DNA from: Luscinia megarhynchos | Taxonomy: Eukaryota; Chordata; Aves; Passeriformes; Turdidae | DNA length: 64,000 nt | Assembly (NCBI GenBank): GCA_034336665.1 | Contig: CM067585.1 | Coordinates: forward strand, 300,501 to 364,500 | Direction: 5' to 3' | Shown here: positions 34,401 through 37,400 of the stretch, in pieces | How the letters are laid out: every line of letters starts with the position of its first letter | Numbering within the stretch: the first letter of the stretch is position 1 | The notes under the pieces: model-generated | The model's database searches: none | The model's input: only the letters and a program-made list of their open reading frames with translations | What the model was told of the DNA's origin: nothing | Position numbers and translations under genes: made by a program

Positions 34401-37400
34401 AGATGCTTTCAGTGGGTGTGATCATGGTGTAAAGACAAGCACTGCCTCGTTAGAATGTGTAACACTGGGTTTTCAAGGCATTGAAGCTGTCCCAAAAGAA
34501 AGGGAAATACAAAATCAATCCTGCAATGGTTTTGTTGGAAGGGATCTTAAAGCCCACTCTGTTCCAGCCCCTGCCACAGGCAGGGACACATTCCAGTGTC
34601 CCAGGGTGTCCCAGCCCTGTCCAGCCTGGCCTTGGGCACTGCCAGGGATCCAGGGGCAGCCACAGCTGCTCTGGGCACCTGTGCCAGGGCTCCCCAGCCC
34701 CCCAGGGAACAATTCCTTCACAATGTACCATCCAAGCCACTCTGGCAGTGGGAATCCACTCCCCTTGTTCTGTCCCTCCGTGCCTTGTCCAAGTCCATCT
34801 GCAGCTCTCCTGGGCCCCCTCAGGTACCACACGAGCTTTCTTACCTCCAGTGCTTCCCAGCCAGCTCAGGGCACCCCAGTGGCTCCGCACTGAGCTGCCA
34901 GCACCAAGCGGGAAGGGAAGGACTGGGCAGCAGGGACTGTCAGAAGCCTGACCACCGGGATCAGGTCCAGGCTCGGGGCCGCAGGGAGGCCCGGGCAGCC
35001 GCCGGCAGGCTGCAGAACGGGGGGCGCTCACCAGAAGTCGCAGCTCTCGTCCCGGCCGTCGAAGCCGATCAGCAGCCGGTTCTCCCGCACGTCCCGCACG
35101 GTGGCCACGGCCAGCGGCGCCGGGCGGCTCCTGCGCGCGGCCTCCAGCTTCATCCCCGCGCGGAAGCCGCAGGGGACGGGCTGCGGCAGGGCCGGGCGTC
35201 AGCTCCGCCTGGCCGGGGGATGTCAGCTCCCTCCTGGCCAGGCTGCAACCCCCCCCCAAGGGACACCAGCCCCTCCTGGCCAGGGGACGGGCTGCGGCAG
35301 GGCCGGGCGTCAGCTCCGCCTGGCCGGGGGATGCCAGCCCCGCCTGGCCAGGGCCAGGGACACCAGCCCCGCCTGGCCAGGGACAGGGACACCAGCCCCG
35401 CCTGGCCAGGGGACACCAGCCCCTCCTGGCCGGGGACATCAGCCCCTCCTGGCCAGGCTGCAACCCCCCCCAAGGGACATCAGCCCCTCCTGGCCAGGGA
35501 CATCAGCCCTGCCTGGCCAGGGACACCAGCCCCGCCTGGCCGGGGACACCAGCCCCTCCTGGCCGGGGACACCAGCCCCGCCTGGCCAGGCTGCAACCCC
35601 CCCCAAGGGACATCAGCCCCTCCTGGCCGGGGACATCAGCCCCTCCTGGCCAGGGACATCAGCCCTGCCTGGCCAGGGACACCAGCCCCGCCTGGCCGGG
35701 GACAGGGACATCAGCCCCTCCTGGCCAGGGGACACCAGCCCCGCCTGGCCGGGGACAGGGACATCAGCCCCTCCTGGCCAGGGACATCAGCCCCGCCTGG
35801 CCGGGGACAGGGACACCAGCCCCGCCTGGCCGGGGACAGGGACATCAGCCCCTCCTGGCCAGGGACATCAGCCCCGCCTGGCCGGGGACAGGGACATCAG
35901 CCCCTCCTGGCCAGGGACACCAGCCCCGCCTGGCCATGGCCAGGGACACCAGCCCCGCCTGGCCAGGGACAGGGACATCAGCCCCGCCTGGCCAGGGACA
36001 TCAGCCCCTCCTGGCCAGGGACAGGGACACCAGCCCCTCCTGGCCAGGCTGCAACCCCCCCCAAGGGACATCAGCCCCTCCTGGCCAGGGACACCAGCCC
36101 CTCCTGGCCGGGGGACATCAGCCCCGCCTGGCCAGGGGACATCAGCCCCTCCTGGCCAGGGACAGGGACACCAGCCCCGCCTGGCCAGGGACAGGGACAT
36201 CAGCCCCTCCTGGCCAGGGACATGAGCCCCTCCTGGCCGGGGGCATCAGCCCCTCCTGGCCAGGCTGCTGCACCCCCAGCAAACCCCCTCTGGCCCAAAC
36301 CTGCAAACCCAAACACTCACTGGGACCACCAGGAGCTCTGCAGACAGGATTTCCCTGAGGTCTGGCAATGACTGCTCCTATTACTACAAAAGGGCTCCCA
36401 GGCTGAGACACCCTGCAGTGATCTGCTGAGGATAATGGGCATTGCACACCCTGTTTCACTGGTGGAAAAGTCAGGAGAGTCTTCAGGGAGAGGAAGTACA
36501 GAGTGGGAAGCAGGGCAGAGCTGGGCCCTGATCCTGCTGGGGTCAGTGACTCTCCGTGTGCAGCTTCCAATCCACCAGCCTGTGGGCTTTGTGCCACTCC
36601 AGCAGCATGAAGTGGGATGGAGGATTTCATGGGAACTGAGGTCAATAACCAGAGAGAAAGCACCAGTGGGGAAGGATGACAAATGCTCAAGATCCACAGC
36701 CCCATAACGAATCCCACAGCACACATGAGCATGCTGCTGGAAACCAGAAATTATTTTGGAAATGATTAAATTAGAGGAAAGTGACACAAATATCTTGACT
36801 GTAGGGGCACAGTAAAACAGAAGGCTGTAATATATTTAATAAATGGTTCAGTAAATCTTCTTCTCCAGCATTAAGGAGGAAGGGAAATACAAATTCTTTC
36901 TCTGGAAAGTCAGCGACTGGGGAAAGGAAGAAAAATTGTACTAGTTTTCCTTCTACAAAAAAACCACAGTGGGAAGTAGTTTGCATCTGATTGTCCTGTG
37001 GCTGTACCTCTGACATAAGCATATTAAAACCACATAAATATTCTGGTCAAAACTCACTTAGCACCAGACCTATTCAAACCCCTTCTATTCCCTACCAGCA
37101 CTTACACTGCTGAGGGTCTTAAAAAGGCTTTTTGGAGCTGCTTGAGCTTTGCAGCTCTTCAGATAGGAAGTCCAATTAAATTCTCCCTCCTTGAAACCTA
37201 GGAAGAGAGAAAAAAAAGATTGTTTTACATGGCCCTGGTACATTCTGGTGAGTTTTTCAGAAATGGAAATTACCTGGAAAGAATATGAACTCTGCATGAT
37301 AACTGCCCTGCTATGATCCCCAGGGGCTGTGCATTTCAGCTAAACCAGCTCTCTCTTTTTCACCATAATGGCCAATCATTAATCTCAACCTTCAAATGTT

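Follow-up and report, generated by a model that had tools for sequence, protein, structure and literature searches.

The three-MBT gene of the window

The window analysed here, a 64-kb stretch of DNA, carries on its minus strand a gene for a protein with three MBT repeats (3xMBT), with N-terminal pieces at ∼42.5 kb at one end and, at the other, a SAM-domain exon at 13.3 kb. The ends of exons B to N are all AG/GT. The exons are listed below in the direction of transcription, together with the local features and the neighbouring gene that bear on them.

54256..56272, minus strand: neighbouring SR splicing-factor gene (RRM by Pfam)
40277..40354, minus strand: exon A, arm before MBT1; 5′ boundary provisional
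38455..38559, minus strand: exon B, first part of MBT1; D, H and a Cys at the C363 position
37696..37831, minus strand: exon C, second part of MBT1; F, Y and Y at the cage positions
37106..37197, minus strand: exon D, arm preceding MBT2; 97% identity with Poecile
35259..36264, no strand: minisatellite 78 bp from exon E, in the intron on its upstream side; ∼1 kb, unit ∼23 bp, ∼41 copies
34881..35320, no strand: CpG-island-like stretch round exon E, ∼440 bp; per 200 bp, GC up to 0.79 and CpG observed/expected up to 1.01
35174..35222, no strand: exon E acceptor and first exon bases; perfect 49-bp copy at 35285-35333, 111 bp upstream, within the minisatellite
35032..35180, minus strand: exon E, encodes the N-terminal part of MBT2, including the two cage loops; cage residues lost at four of five positions; GC 0.76, GC3 1.00
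34229..34305, minus strand: exon F, C-terminal part of MBT2; 100% identity with Poecile over 26 residues
32670..32752, minus strand: exon G, arm linking MBT2 and MBT3
29030..29140, minus strand: exon H, first part of MBT3; D and N retained, Arg at the R461 and R467 positions
27800..27914, minus strand: exon I, second part of MBT3; F, W and Y retained
27603..27702, minus strand: exon J, zinc finger, first part
26009..26183, minus strand: exon K, end of zinc finger and linker; leaves the frame of its relatives after ..DRLSGER
13310..20958, minus strand: SAM-domain exons (20792-20958, 16402-16464 and 13310-13438); 91-98% identity with Poecile, in their own frame

Exon E encodes a stop-free stretch of 49 residues on the minus strand, and on its own is recognized as an MBT repeat by Pfam PF02820 (33.5 bits against a cut-off of 22). 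Its acceptor is AG and its donor GT; the exon is in phase with those at 37106-37197 and 34229-34305, is one residue shorter than its bird orthologues and aligns without gaps to MBT2 of human L3MBTL1. Exon K has one base more than its relatives, within about 26104-26116, and the SAM exons downstream are open in their own frame. If real, the extra base would remove the SAM domain; given the 91-98% identity of the SAM exons to Poecile it is either recent or an error. It suggests a wider relaxation of the gene, or an error of assembly.

The preliminary description read the gene against human L3MBTL1. Orthology with L3MBTL1 is not tenable, as an L3MBTL1-like gene with an intact MBT2 cage lies on contig C23 (C23:1377113-1381141; 87% identity with human L3MBTL1 over 304 aligned residues) and the window gene falls in a separate clade. 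A gene on contig C6, also with an intact MBT2 cage, displays 89% identity with human L3MBTL3 over the MBT region, where the window gene without exon E has 65% identity to human L3MBTL1 and 72% to human L3MBTL3. In a midpoint-rooted tree that kept 569 of 921 columns, of which the window row (without exon E) fills 46% and the C6 row 44%, and in which nine homologue rows and two others were poorly trimmed and human L3MBTL1 and L3MBTL3 served as the human references, the C23 gene groups with human L3MBTL1 (100/100) and the window gene with Poecile and Catharus (100/98). The latter clade runs from sharks to birds (100/100), apart from human L3MBTL1 and L3MBTL3, and holds entries that UniRef names L3MBTL 1b in coelacanth, gar and Oryzias. 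In the sources the bird gene goes under L3MBTL3 or L3MBTL4, and its relatives in fish and coelacanth under 1b. Among the matches listed in the first and third protein searches (120 each, three of them unnamed) no mammal was named.

The neighbours point the same way. The adjoining SR-protein gene (C26:356557), probably SRSF4, is different from the SR-protein gene at C23:1351669, which is 83% identical to it and lies ∼25 kb from the L3MBTL1-like gene; the idea that the neighbour is SRSF6 beside L3MBTL1 was dropped, because it is this related SR gene that accompanies the L3MBTL1-like gene. On the other side of the window gene is a PF10177 gene (C26:279297-280499), presumably TMEM200 or TMEM200B. 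In human, SRSF4 and TMEM200B are on 1p35, and SRSF6 and L3MBTL1 on 20q13. With this gene order, the window gene would appear to be one more copy left by the genome duplications of vertebrates. It is a paralogue separate from L3MBTL1 and L3MBTL3, and may be either L3MBTL4 or a fourth member of the family. Its L3MBTL1-like and L3MBTL3-like relatives in the same genome may cover any function it has lost.

The assembly (1.09 Gb) contains 38 MBT matches in several gene clusters. Searched with the passerine form of exon E it gave nine matches, among them the L3MBTL3-like exon on C6 (84%), the L3MBTL1-like exon on C23 (74%) and the exon of the window itself (59%). An intact second copy of exon E was found neither in the 64-kb window nor in the assembly, the better assembly matches being other MBT genes.

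The CpG-island-like stretch that includes exon E is one of five in the window by our own thresholds. The duplicated 49 bp at the acceptor are taken as a sign of recent rearrangement at the border of the exon. Further tandem arrays are present at 2000-3400, 5300-5800, 21700-22300, 39280-40000, 50000-51000 and 60900-61600, as read from the raw sequence and open reading frame lists.

This setting bears on whether the altered exon is real and is used. It is extremely unlikely that exon E reflects an assembly or sequencing error: the minisatellite is close by and such an error could account for the additional base of exon K, but errors should give indels and stops, whereas exon E displays at least 28 in-frame substitutions, no stop and intact splice sites. 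The E of its ENRLLI motif is shared with the retrieved oscine sequences, indicating that exon E descends from such an exon, and the assembly holds no better copy, the best other matches being the L3MBTL3-like and L3MBTL1-like exons. We give equally little credence to the view that transcripts skip the exon or splice it differently, so that the altered MBT2 never reaches the protein. The perfect acceptor copy 111 bp upstream would favour this, and if used leads into stop codons; however, leaving out its 149 nt puts the frame out of register, the exon is bounded by a true AG acceptor and a true GT donor, and its conserved columns are kept.

The methyl-lysine cage of MBT2

In human L3MBTL1 the working methyl-lysine pocket is that of MBT2, according to PMC2747274. 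A gapless alignment to PDB chains shows that the residues equivalent to D355, N358, F379, W382 and Y386 of the human protein are R, R, F, R and C in exon E, while the same alignment gives D, N, F, W and Y in MBT3, matching the human repeat. The preliminary description, which had reported a destroyed MBT2 pocket beside an intact MBT3 cage, is thus upheld on both counts. Its residue spacing (+3, +24, +27, +31) also fits, although the residue numbers themselves were not reproduced, given a later-starting gene model. A methyl-lysine-reading MBT repeat has an acidic residue and three cage aromatics (D, F, W, Y), where exon E has R, F, R and C. The prediction that MBT2 should not read methyl-lysine is well founded, as Asp is replaced by Arg and three further cage residues are lost, while PMC4844143 describes D355N alone as an inactive mutant of human L3MBTL1 3xMBT. 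By analogy with that mutant, loss of the MBT2 Asp should by itself end methyl-lysine binding.

Such a cage is exceptional among the homologues retrieved. Three protein searches gave a set of 152 proteins, exon E itself included, of which 139 have the exon extractable by pattern (83 distinct exons, isoforms counted); outside the 139 are the window exon, two other proteins and ten homologues lacking the pattern match. The first search supplied the best 120 of 3767 matches (7992 candidates scored) and the third the best 120 of 1707. The full MBT2 cage D, N, F, W, Y is present in 127 of the 139 homologues, drawn from the matches listed, and one to three residues differ in the other 12, with four lost in none. 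Two or three cage residues are altered in Colius, Buceros, Rhynochetos and two Oryzias, and one in seven further homologues. These 12 resemble the window exon in having an altered cage, but only to the extent of one to three residues each; unlike the window exon, none has lost four and none shows the charge reversal. The cage is intact in all ten passerine sequences (Poecile, Catharus, Aphelocoma, Chiroxiphia, two Corvus, Malurus, Sterrhoptilus, Elachura and Lamprotornis).

Exon E differs from the passerine consensus at 20 of 51 positions, one over half again the number in most homologues; the highest count among the 139 is 18, in two Oryzias. The net charge of the stretch has moved from −3 to +2, against a range of −4 to −1 in the 139 homologues. 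A targeted search for proteins bearing the altered exon, which scored 47 candidates in a database of representatives of 90% clusters, gave two distant proteins and none with the exon, and relatives that share it may be hidden inside such clusters. No title dealing with a bird L3MBTL gene that has lost its pocket was found in the literature searched.

The proposal that the protein may have switched to MBT3 is not supported. R461 and R467 have been put forward in PMC2747274 as reasons why human MBT3 does not bind, and R467C alone failed to open the pocket. The window gene retains Arg at both positions, which makes MBT3 an unlikely substitute; the two columns (R352 and R358 of the Poecile protein) are invariant in 38 aligned homologues. 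MBT1 of the window gene displays D, H, F, Y and Y, with Tyr, not His, at the Y386 position and a small Cys where MBT1 of human L3MBTL1 has a bulky Phe. This Cys, at the C363 position, is present in 129 of 131 homologues (MBT1 was found in 131 of 149). From these residues we infer that MBT1 would be a better candidate than MBT3 if a repeat takes over. If still made, the protein probably acts through MBT1, the zinc finger and SAM. As for nucleic-acid binding by a basic surface, which had also been suggested, the shift in charge is real, yet it does not in itself speak for a new function, Arg being what GC-rich codons give.

Direction and confinement of the substitutions

All 50 third codon positions of exon E are G or C, while GC3 is 0.40-0.73 in exons A-D and F-K. 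When the codon nearest to the present one is taken as ancestral for each replaced residue, so that ancestral codons are inferred and replacements only are counted, the exon has undergone 28 minimal base changes: 20 from A/T to G/C, seven between G and C, one between A and T, and none from G/C to A/T. Over tied codons the ranges are 18-20, 6-9, 1-2 and 0, respectively. At codon positions 1 and 2, 19 of 55 A/T bases became G/C and seven of 45 G/C bases became the other of the two, and position 3 is without any A/T. The replacements that enrich for GC include Asp, Asn, Trp, Thr and Val to Arg; Val, Ser and Cys to Ala; and Asn and His to Gly. Gly, Ala, Arg and Pro together rise from 9 to 22 residues, while Phe, Tyr, Met, Ile, Asn and Lys fall from 13 to 7. 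In five codons a change between G and C stands beside one from A/T to G/C.

The burst is confined to this exon among the ten compared. Residues on which the passerines are unanimous are changed at 16 of 44 positions in exon E versus 5 of 246 in nine other exons (A-D and F-J; Fisher p 6.5e-11). The five replacements in the other exons are likewise A/T to G/C, so the gene as a whole leans in that direction. With 18-20 changes toward G/C against none in reverse, and restriction to exon E among ten exons, the pattern is that of a GC-biased substitution burst. Gene conversion from another MBT repeat was ruled out as the source, as 13 of the 51 positions have a state (one a deletion) absent from all 117 homologues.

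That so few residues have changed elsewhere is also relevant to whether the whole gene is decaying in this lineage, in which case exon E and the extra base of exon K would be marks of a pseudogene at an early stage, with the L3MBTL1-like and L3MBTL3-like genes as its cover. We regard this as unlikely, although not negligible. The extra base would cut off the SAM domain, paralogues with an intact MBT2 cage are present in the same genome, and the matches listed, with no mammal named among them, would fit loss of the paralogue in mammals. Set against this are the 5 of 246 unanimous residues changed in the nine other exons, the preserved SAM exons beyond the extra base, the AG/GT ends of exons B to N, and an exon E that keeps its frame and its ten most conserved columns; moreover, a single extra base can be an assembly error. 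Should that base be real, the gene may be in the course of being lost, which would make the missing pocket a symptom of that process.

The ten columns that are invariant in the 83 distinct exons are all unchanged in the window, compared with changes at 20 of the 41 others (p 0.004; this and the p values below assume independent columns and serve as no more than a guide). Among the 117 sequences of the first search alone 15 columns are invariant, and the one that has changed is the cage Trp. At a conservation cut-off of 0.97, 5 of 25 versus 15 of 26 columns are changed (p 0.009), while looser cut-offs reveal no difference (0.95, 11 of 32 versus 9 of 19, p 0.39; 0.90, 12 of 34 versus 8 of 17, p 0.55). 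Four of the five cage columns are changed against 8 of 29 other columns conserved at 0.93 or more (p 0.04), or 16 of all 46 other columns (p 0.07). A model of the Poecile protein (P0002; mean pLDDT 65, used solely for strand placement) puts the MBT2 strands at 241-245, 253-262, 265-270 and 279-282. Changed residues make up six of seven in the loop 246-252, which bears the cage D and N, three of eight in the loop 271-278, which bears the cage W and Y, and 8 of 23 in the strands. The alignment suggests that selection still protects the residues that vary least but no longer protects the pocket, although this contrast of core and pocket is soft.

Could positive selection have remodelled MBT2 into a scaffold, or into an Arg-rich surface that binds nucleic acid or an acidic partner? 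The net charge of +2, outside the range of the 139 homologues, the six of seven residues changed in one cage loop, and the five codons that combine both kinds of change would be in keeping with this. Conversely, selection at the protein level has no reason to avoid A/T, yet 0 of 28 changes are from G/C to A/T and GC3 is 100%; the gains of Arg are what codons pushed toward GC give, and the homologues with partial cage loss show no charge shift. We therefore consider such remodelling very unlikely. Much the same low standing is given to a mixed form, in which a stable recombination site made of the reader pocket an arginine-rich positive face with a new purpose (nucleic acid or an acidic partner), repair bias and not selection being its origin. 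A known kind of cause is the likeliest; an adaptive reading is possible but is not needed.

Origin of the altered exon and its parallels

The explanation we favour, with somewhat better than even confidence, is that exon E is a real exon in which a local GC-biased substitution burst in one passerine lineage removed the MBT2 pocket under weakened constraint, without replacing the cage. The zebra finch, like other birds, has no PRDM9; its recombination events are more frequent at CpG islands, and 59% of the informative ones are resolved toward G/C (PMC12047795). As birds lack PRDM9 and recombine more at CpG islands, the putative driver is GC-biased gene conversion, at a site in the CpG-island-like patch where recombination recurs. 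A site that recombines repeatedly would push A/T to G/C, replacement sites under weak selection included, and GC-enriching replacements would become fixed wherever selection is weak. Selection would still hold the frame, the splice sites and the ten invariant columns, but no longer the ligand pocket; the methyl-lysine cage would thus be lost and not replaced, with the paralogues that keep an intact cage as a possible back-up. The 6-9 of 28 changes between G and C are not driven by conversion bias; to account for them, either a relaxation of selection or locally elevated mutation has to be added.

The change in exon E is more readily seen as a side effect of biased repair of DNA at a local hotspot than as a new function, and the exon warns against an adaptive reading of others of its kind. 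It suggests that a 3xMBT paralogue can lose its pocket yet keep its most conserved residues. If the cause is right, exon E would be a bird test case of repair bias overriding selection at a mapped ligand pocket, and as the residues, their role and the inactive mutant D355N are known from human L3MBTL1, the functional cost is directly measurable.

Comparable bursts are known from other genes. Fxy has a Mid1-like background. Part of Fxy in Mus musculus (28 of 28 changes from A/T to G/C) and exon 1 of human KIF26B (17 of 17; PMC2631073) are like exon E in that an A/T to G/C burst of amino-acid change affects a single portion of the gene and leaves the remainder as it was. They differ in that all their reported changes are from A/T to G/C, whereas 6-9 of the 28 in exon E are between G and C, and exon E loses a mapped ligand pocket. 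Gerbil PDX1, where 15 residues have changed in a domain of 60 that is otherwise invariant (PMC7574485), resembles exon E in its many changes to a constant domain in a GC-rich setting. Mammals, however, cannot do without PDX1, and the GC-rich region around it is larger, while exon E is 149 bp within a few hundred GC-rich bases and a minisatellite. The human L3MBTL1 3xMBT protein has the same repeat order and family as the window gene, which differs from it in having R, R, R and C for D355, N358, W382 and Y386, and in being a paralogue.
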